Assembly (NCBI GenBank): GCA_011525905.1
Contig: WYBK01000014.1
Location: 1 to 39,485 of the forward strand
From: Acidobacteriota bacterium
GTDB lineage: Bacteria > Acidobacteriota > Thermoanaerobaculia > Multivoradales > JAGPDF01
Direction of reading: 5' to 3'
Length of the DNA: 39,485 nucleotides
Both the position numbers and the translations under genes were made by a program. Shown piece by piece: positions 10,378 through 18,780 of this stretch. The notes under the pieces were generated by a model. It saw nothing but the letters and a program-made list of their open reading frames with translations, made no database searches and was not told where the DNA came from. How positions within the stretch are numbered: the stretch's first letter is position 1; every line of letters begins with the position of its first letter.

Positions 10378-11250
10378 TCAGCCGTCGAGGTCGAGCGCGA
10401 CGTCGAGCGCCGGGCTCGAGTGGGTGAGCGCCCCGACCGAGAGCAGGTCGACGCCGGTCGCGGCGATCGCCGCGGCGGTCGCGAGCGTGATTCCCCCGGA
10501 GGCCTCGGTGACCGCGCGACCGGCGACTCGCGCGACCGCGGCGGCGAGCGCCGGCAGCTCGAAGTTGTCGAGCAGGATCGCCTCGACGCCGAGCTCGAGC
10601 GCCTCGTCGAGCTCGGCGGCCGAACCGACCTCGACTTCGATGCGGACCAGGTGCCCGACGTGCGCCCGGGCGCGCTCGACGGCCGGGCGCAGGCCGCCGG
10701 CGGCGACCAGATGGTTGTCCTTGATGAGCACCGCGTCGTCGAGGCCGAAGCGGTGATTGGCGCCGCCGCCGCAGCGCACCGCGTACTTCTCGAGCGCACG
10801 CAGCCCGGGGGTCGTCTTGCGCGTGCAGACGATGCCCGCGCCGCTGCCGCGCACCGCCTCGACGAAGGCGGCGGTGGCGGTCGCGACCCCGCAGAGCCGG
10901 CCGAGCAGGTTCAGGGCCGTGCGCTCACCGGCGAGAATCGGCCCCGCCGGGCCGGCGAGCCGGGCGAGGGTCCGCCCCGCCTCGACGCGCTCCCCGTCGA
11001 CGGCCGCCGGTGCGATCTCGACCGCAGGATCGAGCAGGCGGAAGGTCGCGAGTGCCACCTCGAGCCCGGCGATCACGCCCGCCCGGCGCGCGACGACGGC
11101 GCCGCCGGCCCGCGCGCCGCGCGGCAGGACCGCGTCGGAGGTCAGGTCCCCGGCGCGCCCGAGATCCTCGGCGAGCGCCGAGCGCAGAAGCGGCTCGTAC
11201 TGCGGCGGATAGAGCGTCGGCAGACCCACGCGCGCGGCCTCCCCGTTCAC
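10378..11250 (-). CDS. nadC: Nicotinate-nucleotide pyrophosphorylase (quinolinate phosphoribosyltransferase)
   Basis: Converts quinolinate and PRPP to nicotinate mononucleotide, CO2 and PPi, the third step of de novo NAD synthesis. With the GTG start at 11250 it has 290 residues, a normal length. The GTG overlaps the nadB stop as GTGA, which decides the start; the longer upstream frame is Arg/Ala/Gly-rich and lies inside nadB. Motifs: the substrate-binding segment CTRKTTPGLRALEKYAV (142-158), GGGANHRFGL, IKDNH (176-180), IEVEVGS, and the C-terminal LLDNF and EASGGI loops that bind the phosphoribosyl group. Last gene of nadABC. Confidence 0.95.
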   Translation of the reverse strand: MNGEAARVGLPTLYPPQYEPLLRSALAEDLGRAGDLTSDAVLPRGARAGGAVVARRAGVIAGLEVALATFRLLDPAVEIAPAAVDGERVEAGRTLARLAGPAGPILAGERTALNLLGRLCGVATATAAFVEAVRGSGAGIVCTRKTTPGLRALEKYAVRCGGGANHRFGLDDAVLIKDNHLVAAGGLRPAVERARAHVGHLVRIEVEVGSAAELDEALELGVEAILLDNFELPALAAAVARVAGRAVTEASGGITLATAAAIAATGVDLLSVGALTHSSPALDVALDLDG

Positions 11251-12863
11251 CCGGCGAGCGACCGCTCGGCCGCGCCCGGCGCGCCCGCCGCCGCCGGCAC
11301 GAACCGCGCGGCGAGCGCCCGCTCGTCGACTCGCGGCAGCAGCGCGAGGCGCCGACACTGCGCCGCGTCCTCCGCCGGAAAGTCGGAGCGGAAGTGCGCG
11401 CCGCGGCTCTCTCGGCGGGCGAGCGCCGCGGTGGCGATCAGCCAGGCTCCGGTCAGCAGCGACCGCGCCTCGCTCGCCCCGGGGGGCAGCCGCTCGTGCA
11501 GGCGCTCGAGCCGCGCGATCGCCGCGGCGAGTCCCTCCTCGGCGCGCACCAGCCCGATTCGCTCCCAGGCCAGGCGACGCACCTCGGCGCGCAGCGCCGG
11601 CGCCGCCCGCCGCGGGTCCGTGCCGGCCCGCGGCGGCCGCGCCGCGACCAGCCGCACCGGCCTCTCGGGGGAGCTCGCGCCGGCATCCTGCGCCACGCGG
11701 GCGCCGAAGACCAGCGCCTCGAGCAGCGAGTTGGAGGCGAGCCGGTTGGCGCCGTGCACCCCGGTCGAGGCGACCTCGCCGCAGGCCCAGAGGCCGGCGA
11801 CGCTCGTCCGCCCCCAGCGGTCGGCCTCGACTCCCCCCATGTGGTAGTGCGCTGCCGGGGCGACCGGGATCGGCTCGACGCGCGGGTCGAGGCCGGCGGC
11901 GCGGCAGATCTCGAAGACCGCCGGGAAGCGCTCCGGGAAGCGCTCGCCGACCGCCCGGCGGGCGTCGAGGAAGACTCGCCGCCCAGCCACCAGGCGCCGC
12001 CAGATGGCGCGCGCCACGACGTCGCGCGGCGCGAGCTCGGCGCCTTCGTGCTCGCCGGGCATGAATCGCTCGCCCCGGTCGTCGACCAGCCAGGCGCCCT
12101 CGCCGCGCAGCGCCTCCGTCAGCAGCGGCCGCGGGTCGAAGCGCTCCGCGGCGAGCGCGGTCGGGTGGAACTGCACGAACTCGAGGTCGACCAGCCGCGC
12201 GCCCGCCGCGGCGGCGAGCGCCAGACCGTCGCCGGTCGCTTCGCGCGGGTTGGTGGTCGCCGTCCAGATCTGGCCGCAGCCGCCGGTGGCGAGCACGACG
12301 CGCGGCGCCAGGTGGAGCTCCCGCCCTCCCCCCGGACGGATCGCCTCGACGCCGTAGACGCCGCGCTCGCCGACCAGCAGACGGGCGGCGAAGCGCCGTT
12401 CGAAGCGAGCGATCGACGGATGGCGGGCGACCTGGGTCGCCAGCGCGCGGACCAGCTCGGCGCCGGTGCGGTCGCCGTGCGCGTGCAGGATCCGGTCGCG
12501 GCTGTGCGCCGCCTCGCGGCCGAGCGCGAGCTCGCCGGCGGCGTCGCGGTCGAAGTCGGCGCCGGCCGCGATCAGCCGACGGATCGCGGCGACGCCGTCG
12601 CGCGCCAACAGCTCCGCCAGCTCGGCATCGACCAGCCCGGCGCCGGCCGCCACCGTGTCGGCCGCGTGCCGCGCGGGAGTGTCTCGGCCGCCGAGCGCCA
12701 CGGCCACGCCGCCCTGCGCCCAGTCGCTGGCGGAGCCGGCGCCGACCGTGGCCTTGGTCAGCAAGTGCACCCGGCGCGGAGCCAGGCCGAGCGCCGCCGC
12801 CAACCCGGCCACGCCGGTGCCGACGACCAGGGCGTCGGCGCGGAAGACCTCGAGGGCGCTCAC
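11247..12863 (-). CDS. nadB: L-aspartate oxidase
   Basis: FAD enzyme that oxidises L-aspartate to iminoaspartate, the substrate of NadA. 538 residues from a GTG at 12863, against 540 in E. coli. The N-terminus has the FAD fold [19 protein letters not shown], followed by [16 protein letters not shown], typical of NadB. Further motifs are [51 protein letters not shown] and the C-terminal [12 protein letters not shown]. The GTG overlaps the nadA stop as GTGA, and its own TGA overlaps the nadC GTG in the same way, so the three genes are translationally coupled. A longer open frame reaching into nadA is a shadow. Confidence 0.96.
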
Positions 12864-13882
12864 CGACCGCTCCCCCGGCCGACCTCGAGCATCCGCTCGA
12901 CGGCCCGGCGCGCGCGGCGCGCGACCTCGGGATCGACCGTCACCTCGTGGGTCATCGTCTCGAGGCTGCGCAGGACCTTGGGCAGAGTGATCCGCTTCAT
13001 GTGCGGGCAGAGGTTGCAGGGGCGGACGAAGTCGACCTCCGGGTGCGCGGCGGCGACGTTGTCGCTCATCGAGCATTCGGTGATCAGCACCACGCGACGC
13101 GCGCCGGAGCGTCCGACTTCGTCGATCATTCCCGAGGTCGAGCCGACGTAGTCGGCCTCCGCCAGCACCTCCGGCGGGCACTCCGGGTGGGCGAGCACGT
13201 GGAGCGCCGGATCGAAGCGGCGCATCGCGCGGATCTCCTCCGCGGTGAAGCGCTCGTGCACCTCGCAGTGGCCGCGCCAGAGGACGAGCTCGACGCCGGT
13301 GCGCCCGGCGACGTACCGGCCGAGATACTCGTCGGGCAGGAAGATCACCCGGTCGCTGCCGAGCGACTCGACGACCTCGACGGCGTTGGCCGAGGTGCAG
13401 CAGACGTCCGACTCCGCTTTCACCTCGGCCGACGTGTTGACGTAGGTGACCACCGGCACCCCGGGATAGCGCTCCCGCAGCAGGCGGACGTCGTCCCCGG
13501 TGATCGAAGCGGCGAGCGAGCAGCCCGCCTCGAGGTCGGGGATCAGCACCGTCTTGTCGGGCGCTAGGATCTTCGAAGTCTCGGCCATGAAGTGCACGCC
13601 GCACTGCACGATCACCCGGGCGTCGCAGGCGGCGGCCTGCCGGGCGAGGCCGAGCGAGTCGCCGACGTAGTCGGCCACCCCGTGGAAGATCTCCGGCGTC
13701 TGGTAGTTGTGGGCGAGGATCACCGCCCCCCGCTCGCGCGCCAGGCGGCGGATCGCCGCGACGTAAGGGGCGTGCACCGGCCATTCGACGTCGGGAATCA
13801 CCCGCGCCAGGCGCCGACGCAGGTCGGAGGTCGCGGCCGCGACCTCCGGGGTGTAGGCAAGGGGTGCGGCGGCGGTCGTCAT
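12860..13882 (-). CDS. nadA: Quinolinate synthase A
   Basis: Condenses iminoaspartate with dihydroxyacetone phosphate to quinolinate using a [4Fe-4S] cluster. 340 residues from the ATG at 13882, which follows GGAGGAGC; the 20-residue in-frame extension upstream was rejected. The three cluster ligands expected for the family are visible: C121 in [11 protein letters not shown]235 in HPECPPEV, and C292 (or C289) in [12 protein letters not shown]. Other landmarks are [41 protein letters not shown] and GSTSGMI. First gene of nadABC, with a leader of about 78 bases behind a strong promoter that carries a palindromic operator. Confidence 0.96.
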
Positions 13883-13962
13883 CGCGATGCTCCTCCGGTG
13901 CGTTGCCGGCCGCGGGGGACGCCGCGGCGAGCGCGCGCCCACCCGATCAACTCCGCGCGCAG

Positions 13963-13987
13963 AATTATCCTAGTTCTGAGCATAATT
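13963..13987. promoter_or_regulatory. 25-bp imperfect palindrome overlapping the nadABC promoter, predicted repressor operator
   Basis: The outer arms are AATTAT (13963-13968) and ATAATT (13982-13987). Matching extends inward as AATTATnCT and AGnATAATT, with a seven-base unmatched centre. The element covers most of the -35/-10 spacer and the whole -10, so a bound dimer would block RNA polymerase. NrtR, encoded in the next operon upstream, is the obvious candidate regulator. The pairing of protein and site is inference. Confidence 0.65.
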
Positions 13988-13995
13988 GCTGTCAA
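13967..13995 (-). promoter_or_regulatory. Promoter of nadABC
   Basis: On the minus strand: TTGACA (13990-13995, perfect -35), a 17-bp spacer, and TAGGAT (13967-13972, four of six -10 matches). The region is strikingly AT-rich for this window. Transcription would start near 13960, about 78 bp before the nadA ATG. Confidence 0.75.
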
Positions 13996-14050: not shown

Positions 14051-15094
14051 TCAGGGCTCGGGCAGCGGATCGGTGCTGCGCAGACGGCGGGCGCCGACGG
14101 CCGCGAACCGGGCGAAGGCGGCCGCGGCCTCGGCGGTGAAGTCGGCGAGCAGCTCACCCGGGCGCTCCGGGTCGGGCACGGCGACCGCCGAGGTGGCGTC
14201 CTCGAGCAGCCAGATCCGCGAGGCGCCCCCTTCCCCCCGGCGCTCGAGCTCGGCCACCAGGTCGGCGACCGTGCTCTTCACGCAATGGCTCGCCGCCTGG
14301 CCGGCGACGATCAGCGCGTCGGCCGCGAGCAGCTCGTCGCGCAGTCGACGATTCGGCTCCGCGAGGCGCCGGCCGTCGTGCGCCCACTCGACCTCGGGCG
14401 AGAGCGCCGAGTAGTACTCGGTGAGCGGCGCCTCCCCCTTGACTTCGAGCGGTGCGTCGACCTGCCGGCACCAGGCGTGGAAGAGGCGCGCCTCCTGCAC
14501 CACGCCGGCCAGCGCGTGGCCGTCGCCGCCGGCCAGGCAGTGCGGCGGCCAGAGGTAGAGGCGATAGTGCCCGGTCGCCTCCAGCCGCTCGCAGTAGTCG
14601 AGTGCCTGCCGCTCGAGCCAGGCGAGGTCGCCGCCGGCGTGGACGGCGGCGAGCCCTGGGGCGGGCCGCGCCTCGCCCCGCCGGACCTCTTCGGCGGTCA
14701 CGGTCCGGTGGGCAGCGAGAGGCCTGCCCTCCCGATCGACCCAGAACTCGGGGAAGAAGATTTGGAATGGGCGGTGAGTGTCGAGCGTGCAGACGATTCT
14801 CGAGATGCGCCCGAGATTGCGGTAGACGAACTCGGCGATCCGGCGGTTGTCCTCGAGCGCTCCCCGGCCGCTGCGCCCGCCGACGTAGAGCGTGCCTTCG
14901 GGGAAGCAGAAGTCGCGCTGGACGTCCACCAGCAGCAGCACCACCCGCGGCTCGGCGGTCCCGGGACCGCGCAGCCGGTGCCGCGCGCGCCAGGCGTCGG
15001 CCGCGGCCGCGAGCGCCACCGGATCGGGCGTGTAGCCGAAGCTCTCGGCGCGCTCGGCGCGGTAGTGCGGCGGCAGCGGCAGCTCGCCCCTCAT
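14051..15094 (-). CDS. pncA: Nicotinamidase-like isochorismatase-family hydrolase, unusually long
   Basis: Probably hydrolyses nicotinamide to nicotinate for PncB. The catalytic triad of nicotinamidases is present: D57 in [10 protein letters not shown]219 in [16 protein letters not shown], and C271 in AASHCVKST. Metal-site candidates are D105 and H107 (TLDTHRP) and H185 (WPPHC). At 347 residues it is much longer than typical nicotinamidases (about 180-220). The extra length is an N-terminal stretch of about 50 residues and an insertion of about 70 residues (110-180) between the metal motifs. The ATG overlaps the pncB stop as ATGA, so it is coupled to nicotinate phosphoribosyltransferase, which strongly supports the role. 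A related amidase on another substrate cannot be excluded. Confidence 0.82.
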
Positions 15095-16608
15095 GCCGGC
15101 TCTCCGCCGTGGGCGGCGCGCGCCGCGAGAATCAACTCGGTCTTGGCCTCGTGCAGGCCACGCTCGAGGCCGACCGGATAGGCGTGCGGGTTGAGAAAGC
15201 GGAGCACGCCGGGGTGCAGCCGCGCGAGCTGGTCGCGACAGTGGGCGCGGACCGACTCGACCGGCGGCGGCTCGGCCACCACCTCGCCGTGCACGACCAC
15301 CGGCCGGAGCAGGTCGTGCCACTCCATCTTCTGGTGGAGCCGTCGGCGGCGGGTCGAGTCGAGCGGATCGACGATCTCGGGCGGGGGCGCGACGCCGAGC
15401 GACTCGTCCCAGATCATGTCGGCGACGAAGCCCCGGTCGTCGCCGAAGCGGCGCACCTGCAGCCGGCCCGGGGTGGTCGTCTTGGCGACCTGCTCGGACA
15501 GCTTGATGCGCGGCTGCCAGGGTCCCCCGCCCCGGCGCACCGCGGCGAGCTTGTAGACGCCGCCGAGCGCCGGTTCCTCCCAGGCGGTCACCAGCCGTGT
15601 GCCGACGCACCAGACGTCGATGCGGGCCCCCTGCTGCCGCAGGCTCTCGATCAGGTGCTCGTCGAGGTCGTTGCTCGCCAGGATCTGGACGTCGCCGAGA
15701 CCCGCGCCGTCGAGGAGCTTGCGCGCCTCGATCGACAGCCAGGCGAGGTCGCCCGAATCGAGCCGGATGCCGGCGAGCCTCGCCCCGCGGGCACGCAGCT
15801 CGAGGCCGACCTCGACGGCCCGGCGCACCCCTTCGAGCGAATCGAAGGTGTCGACCAGCAGCACGCAATTGCCCGGCTGCGCCTCGGCGTAGGCGCGGAA
15901 GGCCTCGATCTCGGAGTCGAAGGCGAGCACCCAGGCGTGGGCGTGGGTGCCGCGCACCGGCAGGTCGAAGGCCCGGCCGGCCATCAGGTTCGAGGTCCCC
16001 TCGCAGCCGCCGATCGCCGCCGCGCGCGCCGCGGTCAACGCCCCGTCGGGTCCCTGCGCCCGCCGCAGGCCGAACTCGACGACCGGCGCGCCGCCCGCTG
16101 CACAGACCAGGCGCGCGGCCTTGGTCGCCACCAGCGTCGGGAAGTTGACCAGGGTGAGCAGCGCGGTCTCGACGATCTGGGCGTCGAAGATCGGCCCGCT
16201 CACCCGCAGCAGCGGCTCCTGGGCGAAGACCACCGTGCCCTCGGGGAGGGCCTCGACGTCGCAGCGGAACCGGAAGCTCTCGAGCCGGTCGAGGAAGGCG
16301 CTCTCGAACAGCGGCCGGCCGTCGCCGCCGGTCAGGCCGGCGAGGTAGGCGAGATCGTCCGGCTCGAAGCGGAGCTCGCGCAGGTAGTCGAGCACCGCCG
16401 CGAGCCCGCAGGCGACCGCGAAGCCGCCGCCGAAGGGCAAGCGCCGGAAGAAGAGGTGGTAGACCGCCTCCTGCTCCGGCTCGAGCCGACGCCGCCAGTG
16501 GGCGTGCGCCATGGTCAGCTGGTAGAGGTCGGTCAGCAGGGCCGCCGACCGGCGGTAGAACCCGCTGGGGTAGCGGAGCGCCGGGCCGCTGCCGGGGGCG
16601 TCAGCCAT
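15091..16608 (-). CDS. pncB: Nicotinate phosphoribosyltransferase
   Basis: Makes nicotinate mononucleotide from nicotinate and PRPP with ATP hydrolysis: NAD salvage. 505 residues. N-terminal [15 protein letters not shown] and [17 protein letters not shown] are family hallmarks. [13 protein letters not shown] (178-190) and GTHAHAWV (220-227) follow; the second contains the histidine phosphorylated in this family. Further on are [25 protein letters not shown] and SNDLDEHLI, then a basic C-terminal domain. The ATG lies inside the 3' end of nrtR (8-bp overlap) and its stop overlaps the pncA-like start. It belongs to the lipB-nrtR-pncB-pncA operon. Confidence 0.95.
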
Positions 16609-17551
16609 GACTCTTCAATCCGGGCAGTCCGACGCCGGGCGCCGGTCGCTCGCGCAGCACGTCGCGGCGGAAACGGAAGAGCTCGGCCGGCCGACCGCCG
16701 GTGTGCGGGTTCTTCTCGCCGGTGCGCTCGACCAGCCCGCCCTCCTCGACCAGCCGGCGGAAGTTCTGCTTGTGCAGGCGCACGCCGGCCAGCGCCTCGA
16801 CCAGACGCTGCGCCTGGAGCAGAGTGAAGCTCTCCGGCAGGAGCTCGAAGACCACCGGTCGATAGCGCAGCTTGCCGCGCAGGCGGCCGAGCGCGCTGGC
16901 CAGGATCCGGCGGTGGTCGAGCGCCAGAGGTTGGCCGAGGCCGGCGCGGTCGACGCCGGTCGCGCCGGCGCCGTCGCGCTCCGCCTCGGCCGCCAGCCCC
17001 GACTCGTAGAGCAGCTCGAACCGGTCGAGCACGCGCTCGCCGTCCCACGGGGCGCCGTGCAGCCCGAAGGCGATCTCGGCGCGCTCGCGGCGCCCGGCCC
17101 GCTCCTGCCCGCCGATCGACGCCGCCAGCCAGCGCGTCAGCCCCGGGGCGATCGCGCGGTCGAGCGCGGCCGGCCGCCCCGCGCGCCAGTCCTCCCACGG
17201 GAGCAGGTCGTAGCACGCGACCCAGCGGGCGCCGCCGCCCCGGGCGAGCGGCGCCTCGCGCACCAGCGCGAGGTAGGCGATCGAGACGACGCGCGGCGCG
17301 CCGAAACGCTCGCGCGGATCGCGATTCCGGTTGCCGAAGGTATAGAGCTGCTCGACGTAGCCGAGGTCGAGGCCGCTCTGCTCCTCGACCCAGCGGCGCA
17401 GCGCCAGCTCGAGCGTGCGGTCGCGCTCCGGATCGAGCGGACCGGACGGCAGCGCGAGCCCGCCGTCGCCCTCGACCAGCAGGACGCGCGGTTCCTCGTC
17501 GGTCACGGCGACGATCACGCAATTCAAGCCGATGGCGAGCTCGGTGGTCAT
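16601..17551 (-). CDS. nrtR: NrtR-type transcriptional regulator (Nudix-derived sensor plus winged helix)
   Basis: NrtR proteins repress NAD-synthesis genes and usually sense ADP-ribose or related compounds with a degenerate Nudix domain. Here the Nudix fold spans about 1-150. The Nudix box (about 37-61, [25 protein letters not shown]) has R in place of the first Glu of the REUXEE core, so hydrolysis is probably lost. The C-terminal winged helix (about 215-295) has the typical [41 protein letters not shown] and [21 protein letters not shown]. 316 residues, longer than most NrtRs (about 220-250) because of a Gly/Ala/Asp-rich linker near 170-210. The ATG overlaps the lipB stop as ATGA. Likely targets are the nadABC promoter and perhaps its own operon. 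Confidence 0.88.
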
Positions 17552-18240
17552 GCCGAGCGCGCCTCCGCGCCGAACCCGGCGAGCTCCAGCTCCCGCTCGA
17601 AACGGCGCGCGAAGCGGCGGGCGAAGCGCGCGGCGACGCTTTCGAGCGCTGGCGTCCGGCCGGTCTCGCGCGCGATCGAGGTGGTCTGGATGCCGATCAG
17701 GCCGCAGGGGACGATGCCGGCGAACAGCGCGAGATCGGGGTCGACGTTCAACGCGAAGCCATGCGTCGTGAGCCAGCGCGAGAGGTGGATGCCGATCGCC
17801 GCGATCTTGCGCCCGCCCGTCCAGACGCCGATCCGCTCGCCCTCCCCGACCTCGGCGGTCACGCCCAGCTCGGCGAGCGTCTCGACCAGCAGCTCCGAGA
17901 GGTCGCGCACGTAGCGGCGCAGGTCGCGCCGGTCCGGCGACAGATCGACGACCGGATAGCCGACCAGCTGCCCCGGCCCGTGGTAGGTGACCTGGCCGCC
18001 GCGGTCGGTCTCGTGCACCTCGATGCCTCGGCGCTCGAGCTCGGCGCGCGGCAGCAGGACGTCCGCCGGCGTGGCGTTGCGGCCGAGCGTGTAGACGGGG
18101 TCGTGCTCGAGCAGGAAGAGCCGCTCCGGCCCCGCGCCCCGCCGCAACGCCTCGCGCGCGGCGAGCTGCAGCTCGAGCGCCGGCGCGTAGCCGATCCGCC
18201 CGAGCCAGCTCGCCACCAGCCTGCGCCGCTCCGCCGCCAC
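17548..18240 (-). CDS. lipB: Octanoyl-[ACP]:protein octanoyltransferase LipB
   Basis: Moves octanoyl from ACP to the lipoyl domains of 2-oxoacid dehydrogenases, ahead of LipA. 230 residues. Motifs: LLEHDPVYTLGRNA, the signature RGGQVTYHGPGQLVGYPVV (80-98), catalytic K145 in GGRKIAAIGIH and catalytic C179 in GIVPCGL. The GTG at 18240 is the first in-frame start that keeps the family N-terminus. It has no Shine-Dalgarno but sits six bases after a TAGAAT -10 word, so the message may be leaderless. First gene of the lipB-nrtR-pncB-pncA operon, an unusual pairing of lipoate and NAD salvage genes. Confidence 0.93.
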   Translation of the reverse strand: MAAERRRLVASWLGRIGYAPALELQLAAREALRRGAGPERLFLLEHDPVYTLGRNATPADVLLPRAELERRGIEVHETDRGGQVTYHGPGQLVGYPVVDLSPDRRDLRRYVRDLSELLVETLAELGVTAEVGEGERIGVWTGGRKIAAIGIHLSRWLTTHGFALNVDPDLALFAGIVPCGLIGIQTTSIARETGRTPALESVAARFARRFARRFERELELAGFGAEARSA

Positions 18241-18252: not shown

Positions 18253-18550
18253 GCGACCCGCTCCGAACGCCCCGACGAGCCGCACCACGCCTCGACGCCC
18301 CCAGGCGCCGCTTTTCTTTGGCTTCCCGATTCGCTCGCAGCGCCTCCCCGATCCGCAACGTAGCCGCAATCGCCCGGAAAAGCGGCATCTAGGGGGAGCT
18401 CGGTCCGACGCGCGCTCCCTCCCGAGACGCCGCGCCAGCTCGAGGCGGCTCTCCCCGATCGACAGCCATCCCATGCCATCCCCTACCGTCCTCTCGGAGC
18501 CGAGGCGCGATCCGCAGAGCGCCACCGCGCCCGGAGCCAGCACCCCTTAG

Positions 18551-18780
18551 CCGGAGCTTCTCTGGCAACCGAACGGCCTCATCGGGGTCCCGCGCAGCGC
18601 CACGACGCCCGAGGCCTCCTCCCCTCAACCGGAGCTTCTCGGGCGCTCGAACGGCCTCAGCGGCGATTCGCGCAGCGCCACGACGCACGAAGCAGCCACC
18701 TTACAAACGGAGCTCTTCGAGCGCTCGAACGGCCTCGGTGGCGTTTCGCACAGCGCCGAGGCGAGCGCGCCAGGCGGACG
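18551..18780. repeat. Tandem array of 78-bp repeats in the lipB to deoxyhypusine-synthase gap
   Basis: Three head-to-tail units start at 18551, 18629 and 18707, each exactly 78 bp after the last. The shared core is CGGAGCTTCTC, then CGAACGGCCTC, then CGCGCAGCGCC. A decayed fourth unit, recognisable in its right half (CCGCAGAGCGCCACCGCGCCC), precedes them at about 18473-18550. The third unit contains the 14-bp perfect palindrome TTCGAGCGCTCGAA. 78 bp is 26 codons, so one minus-strand frame stays open through two units, but no conserved start or ribosome site goes with it. The rest of the gap (18253-18472) shows only faint similarity to the unit. This array and the promoter after it are all that is seen in 18241-18866. 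Confidence 0.85.

Follow-up and report, generated by a model that had tools for sequence, protein, structure and literature searches.

The NadQ regulon (COG4111) is known from Proteobacteria, where the consensus ttATRCTCannntGAGYATaa lies upstream of nadABC, with nadE and nadD added to the regulon in some groups (Leyn et al. 2016, PMC5343134). According to the title of Minazzato et al. (2022, J Struct Biol 214:107917; cited in PMC11452294), NadQ is Nudix-like and ATP-responsive. Two other regulators are built along similar lines. NrtR of Mycobacterium smegmatis (PMC6800001) is, like NadQ, a Nudix-like and winged-helix repressor of nadABC with a palindromic operator near nadA; unlike the system described here, it has another motif, responds to ADP-ribose and is an autorepressor. 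AraR of Bacteroides (PDB 5bs6; PMC4666351) also has winged-helix and Nudix-like domains, but controls arabinose use. Here we consider a palindrome upstream of nadABC in an Acidobacteriota bacterium. The locus shares with the NadQ regulon of alpha-, beta- and gammaproteobacteria its motif, a regulator family matched over its whole length, and nadABC as the core target; the published reconstruction (PMC5343134) concerns Proteobacteria, whereas the present case is acidobacterial.

The DNA analysed, which we call the window, is a stretch of 39,485 nucleotides with a G+C content of 73.4%, and the genes discussed here all lie on its minus strand. The predicted first controlled gene is nadA, for quinolinate synthase (12860-13882; NCBIfam NF006878, 376 bits, above cut-off). 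It is followed by nadB, for L-aspartate oxidase (11247-12845; NF005701, 630 bits, matching from residue 314 of a long open reading frame), and nadC, for quinolinate phosphoribosyltransferase (10378-11190; TIGR00078, 315 bits, matching from residue 58), both with approximate starts. On the other side of the operator lie lipB, for a lipoyl transferase (17548-18240); nadQ, for a Nudix-like winged-helix repressor that is the most likely operator binder (16601-17551); the salvage gene pncB, for nicotinate phosphoribosyltransferase (15091-16608; NF006695, 562 bits), which overlaps the end of nadQ; and a nicotinamidase-like gene of the isochorismatase fold (14051-15094). Each of these four genes shares a few bases with the next, and together they apparently form one operon, with the operator situated between its last gene and nadA. 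A preliminary description of the sequence had spoken of nadABC and of a salvage operon, and the profile matches bear its gene calls out, with pncB and the nicotinamidase-like gene upstream of the operator. The matches of the nicotinamidase-like gene are weak (PRK11609; PF00857 at 22.9 bits, below the cut-off of 27). Its protein, of 347 residues against the 213 positions of the PncA model, is weakly like the isochorismatase family and is best called a putative nicotinamidase.

In Proteobacteria nadQ is often found beside nadABC (PMC5343134), as here. The arrangement in this acidobacterial order differs from the proteobacterial one in that nadQ comes after lipB, and is followed in the window's genus by pncB and the nicotinamidase-like gene. 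Of seven nadQ regions that were looked at (L179-L184), six have lipB directly 5' of nadQ, as does the window, which makes this a conserved neighbourhood of lipoate and NAD genes. Upstream of lipB, at 18500-18700, there are near-repeats such as 'agagaagctccggyt' and 'atgaggccgttcg', possibly a short repeat array.

Upstream of nadA the minus strand reads TTGACA as a -35 hexamer (13995-13990), a 17-bp spacer and TAGGAT as a -10 hexamer (13972-13967). A 25-bp imperfect palindrome, AATTATGCTCAGAACTAGGATAATT (13963-13987), overlies the -10 and the greater part of the spacer; its arms, AATTATnCT and AGnATAATT, pair at 8 of 9 outer positions. The hexamers, their spacing and the palindrome with its arms had been noted in the preliminary description and can be read directly. 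The same account called the palindrome the most AT-rich patch of the window, and 13963-13987, with a G+C of 7/25, is indeed its lowest-GC 25-mer. The further claim that the match is unlikely to be chance holds, though not by palindromy alone, which is not significant: pairing at 8 or more of 9 outer positions occurs at 32 places in the window, the other 31 being mostly GC-rich. The site stands out instead by composition, by position and most of all by being conserved. Within the palindrome lies the predicted operator core, TTATGCTCAGAACTAGGATAA (13965-13985, minus strand), which fits ttATRCTCannntGAGYATaa at 15 of 18 positions. One half is perfect; the downstream half-site, CTAGGATAA, which doubles as the -10 hexamer, deviates from tGAGYATaa, and the operator is among the weaker ones, while those of relatives reach 18/18. 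The operator is about 80 bp upstream of nadA. Judged by position, transcription would start near 13960, giving a leader of some 80 bases to the nadA start at 13882.

How widely does this arrangement recur? A whole-genome scan with TATNCTNANNNTNAGNATA at no more than one mismatch hit 36 of 59 relatives. Most of these hits lie at nadA, and a reversed-pattern control was almost empty. In genus g6 every genome lacks both nadA and the motif. With leaders read singly, the recurrence upstream of nadA that the preliminary description had proposed to look for was found in 30 of 30 same-order loci, which supports its placing of an operator on the nadABC promoter. The consensus of the order, TTATnCTCA-N3-TGAGnATAA, equals the motif that was published for NadQ (PMC5343134). 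The promoter is retained along with the motif: TTGACA is present in 27 of the 30 loci, the other three match it at 5/6 positions, and the spacing is 17-18 bp.

Two copies of the motif are present in 27 of these 30 leaders, 57-91 bp apart and mostly by about 60. The distal copy lies on the promoter and has TAGnAT as its -10-side half-site in 26 of the 27 two-site genomes; the proximal copy has GAGnAT, likewise in 26 of 27, and usually has no -35. The window's species has only the distal, promoter copy: a search of the window's leader for a proximal one gave 10/18 at best, and the same-genus genome G003 retains a weak one. This two-operator layout, near-universal in the order and with one copy on the promoter, differs from that of proteobacterial NadQ, and outside the acidobacteria a two-site promoter arrangement was seen in just 14 of 54 nadA loci. 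The promoter's -10 requirement would best explain the TAG for GAG: the distal half-site would depart from the ideal GAGnAT because it also serves as the -10 hexamer. Two operators might act by looping, by cooperation or as a roadblock. We put forward, tentatively and as rather more apt to be wrong than right, a model in which NadQ of this order acts on nadABC from a pair of operators spaced by about six helical turns. One would be embedded in the promoter, where a half-site is the -10 and GAG has become TAG, and the other would lie in the leader; they could work jointly by looping or as a roadblock, and in the window's species the second would have been lost.

Does NadQ accompany the motif? 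Among 80 named nadA loci, with a motif counted at a match of at least 13 of 18 positions, 62 are motif-positive, and NadQ is present for all 62, within about 6 kb in 45 cases and elsewhere in the genome or record in 17. Among the motif-negative genomes tested NadQ is found in 0 of 11, one of which has a weak Nudix-only match. Of 247 genomes sampled evenly across the phylum, 144 have nadA and 25 have NadQ. The exact motif stands upstream of nadA in 18 of the 247: 15 have NadQ, one draft has a NadQ fragment (G162), and in two further drafts, G264 (motif at C373:12047) and G170 (C39:107151), a search for nadQ detected none. Nor was nadQ detected in G033, a draft 82% complete that has the motif upstream of nadA. 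The motif without nadQ in G264, G170 and G033 would reflect either gaps in draft assemblies or loss of the regulator. Since NadQ and the motif both track one NadA subfamily, these counts are not independent events, and the co-occurrence is in part shared ancestry. In a NadQ tree of 75 rows the acidobacterial proteins group together, but their cluster is interrupted by sequences that carry the labels Gemmatimonadota, Myxococcota and Rhodospirillales, and a sequence with the label Tectimicrobiota lies beside it. Transfer and mislabelled metagenome bins may both contribute to this mixture.

Which regulator, then, would bind the site? The preliminary description took it for an NrtR operator, which would be released by ADP-ribose. 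That account was right that a Nudix-like winged-helix regulator is encoded nearby, and the family it named is a relative: NrtR and NadQ have the winged-helix domain in common, and in mycobacteria nadABC is likewise under the control of NrtR (PMC6800001). The protein encoded at 16601-17551 nevertheless fits NadQ far better. By phmmer it matches PDB 7q91, 'NADQ transcription factor', over residues 9-310 with 279.8 bits (E 2.7e-82), roughly four times the score to AraR (70 bits) or to NrtR (62 bits to the solved example 3gz5, which aligns in two short stretches only). Identity to 7q91 is 151/302 (50%) overall and 67/105 (64%) in the winged-helix part, where the segment LHKQNFRRL is the same in both proteins. 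Pfam finds NrtR_WHD (76 bits) and NUDIX, the latter in agreement with a Nudix-like N-terminal domain, while on the NCBIfam model of the ADP-ribose-responsive repressor (NF050029) the protein scores 86.5 bits against a cut-off of 400. Given the whole-length 7q91 match and a score so far below that cut-off, sequence comparison identifies the regulator as NadQ (COG4111), which is homologous to NrtR yet distinct from it, and no other NrtR or NadQ homologue was found in the window's genome. Motifs of NrtR differ between lineages, and a motif mismatch alone would not exclude NrtR. As an NrtR site the operator was rejected also on its motif, which is that of NadQ and is unlike both the mycobacterial GTTTTCGA-N7-TCGAAAAC (PMC6800001) and the streptococcal motifs. 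We consider control by NrtR very unlikely.

It might be supposed instead that a different regulator binds the conserved palindrome, and that NadQ is merely a neighbour, as the few draft genomes with the motif and no detected nadQ would allow. Against this, NadQ goes with every one of the 62 motif-bearing named loci, including the 17 in which it is encoded elsewhere in the genome; moreover, the pairing of motif and NadQ is published (PMC5343134), and a winged-helix segment is identical to that of the solved NadQ. We rate this supposition as improbable as control by NrtR. Least credible of all is that the site is a mere AT-rich promoter, palindromic by chance. Promoters are AT-rich, and equally strong palindromes are found at 32 places in the window, but the same palindrome, in register with the -35 and -10, recurs across diverse families of the order, and most relatives have a second, promoterless copy about 60 bp downstream; chance is refuted by this conservation. 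The palindrome is, with high probability, the operator of the NadQ encoded 2.7 kb upstream, lying over a sigma-70-type promoter of nadABC.

What else might this NadQ control? With TTATNCTNANNNTNAGNATAA at up to three mismatches, the nadA site is the sole place in the window's whole genome; no site at that threshold lies before pncB, the nicotinamidase-like gene or nadQ. The 25-mer of the preliminary description likewise has, as exact or near copies in its own genome, this place and one chance match with three mismatches at C79. The proposal that the palindrome ties the de novo pathway to the salvage genes, as an operator shared by both, is therefore not supported. It seems that nadQ is co-transcribed with the salvage genes, and that the two pathways are linked by gene order alone. 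The regulon is larger in the relative G034, as a 17/18 NadQ site lies directly 5' of a gene for an NAD synthase of the glutamine-dependent type, nadE (C53; L174:2008-2028). In some alphaproteobacteria, too, nadE belongs to the NadQ regulon as published (PMC5343134). Motif-like matches beside PadR-type-looking genes in G011 (C33) and G021 (C166) were set aside as poorer motifs, being operators of those genes or chance. NadQ-like palindromes lie near PadR-type-looking genes at L175:2009 and L176:2016; judged by eye, they probably represent another kind of operator whose core is similar.

The sequences show an operator site and promoter-like hexamers, both of them conserved, and a regulator that can be identified and that co-occurs with the motif. 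Binding, repression and the ligand we infer from the family, as follows. A NadQ dimer on 13963-13987 would cover the spacer and the -10 hexamer. So bound, it would keep RNA polymerase out and turn de novo NAD synthesis off. A ligand, probably ATP, which is named for proteobacterial NadQ, would then bind the Nudix-like domain and release NadQ, if the acidobacterial protein behaves as its family does.

We found no earlier description of a NadQ operator in Acidobacteriota in the literature examined. The case adds a phylum to those in which control by NadQ is known, and is in other respects ordinary. It means that the NadQ regulon reaches beyond the Proteobacteria, to Acidobacteriota and to related loci labelled Gemmatimonadota, Myxococcota and Tectimicrobiota. 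To name such a regulator NrtR is a likely misannotation, and one that would point experimenters to the wrong ligand. If the two-operator model is true, repression in the window's species, which would have lost the second operator, should be weaker or tuned in another way. The fixed contrast of TAG in promoter operators and GAG in leader operators is a clean example of a sequence that serves both RNA polymerase and a repressor.
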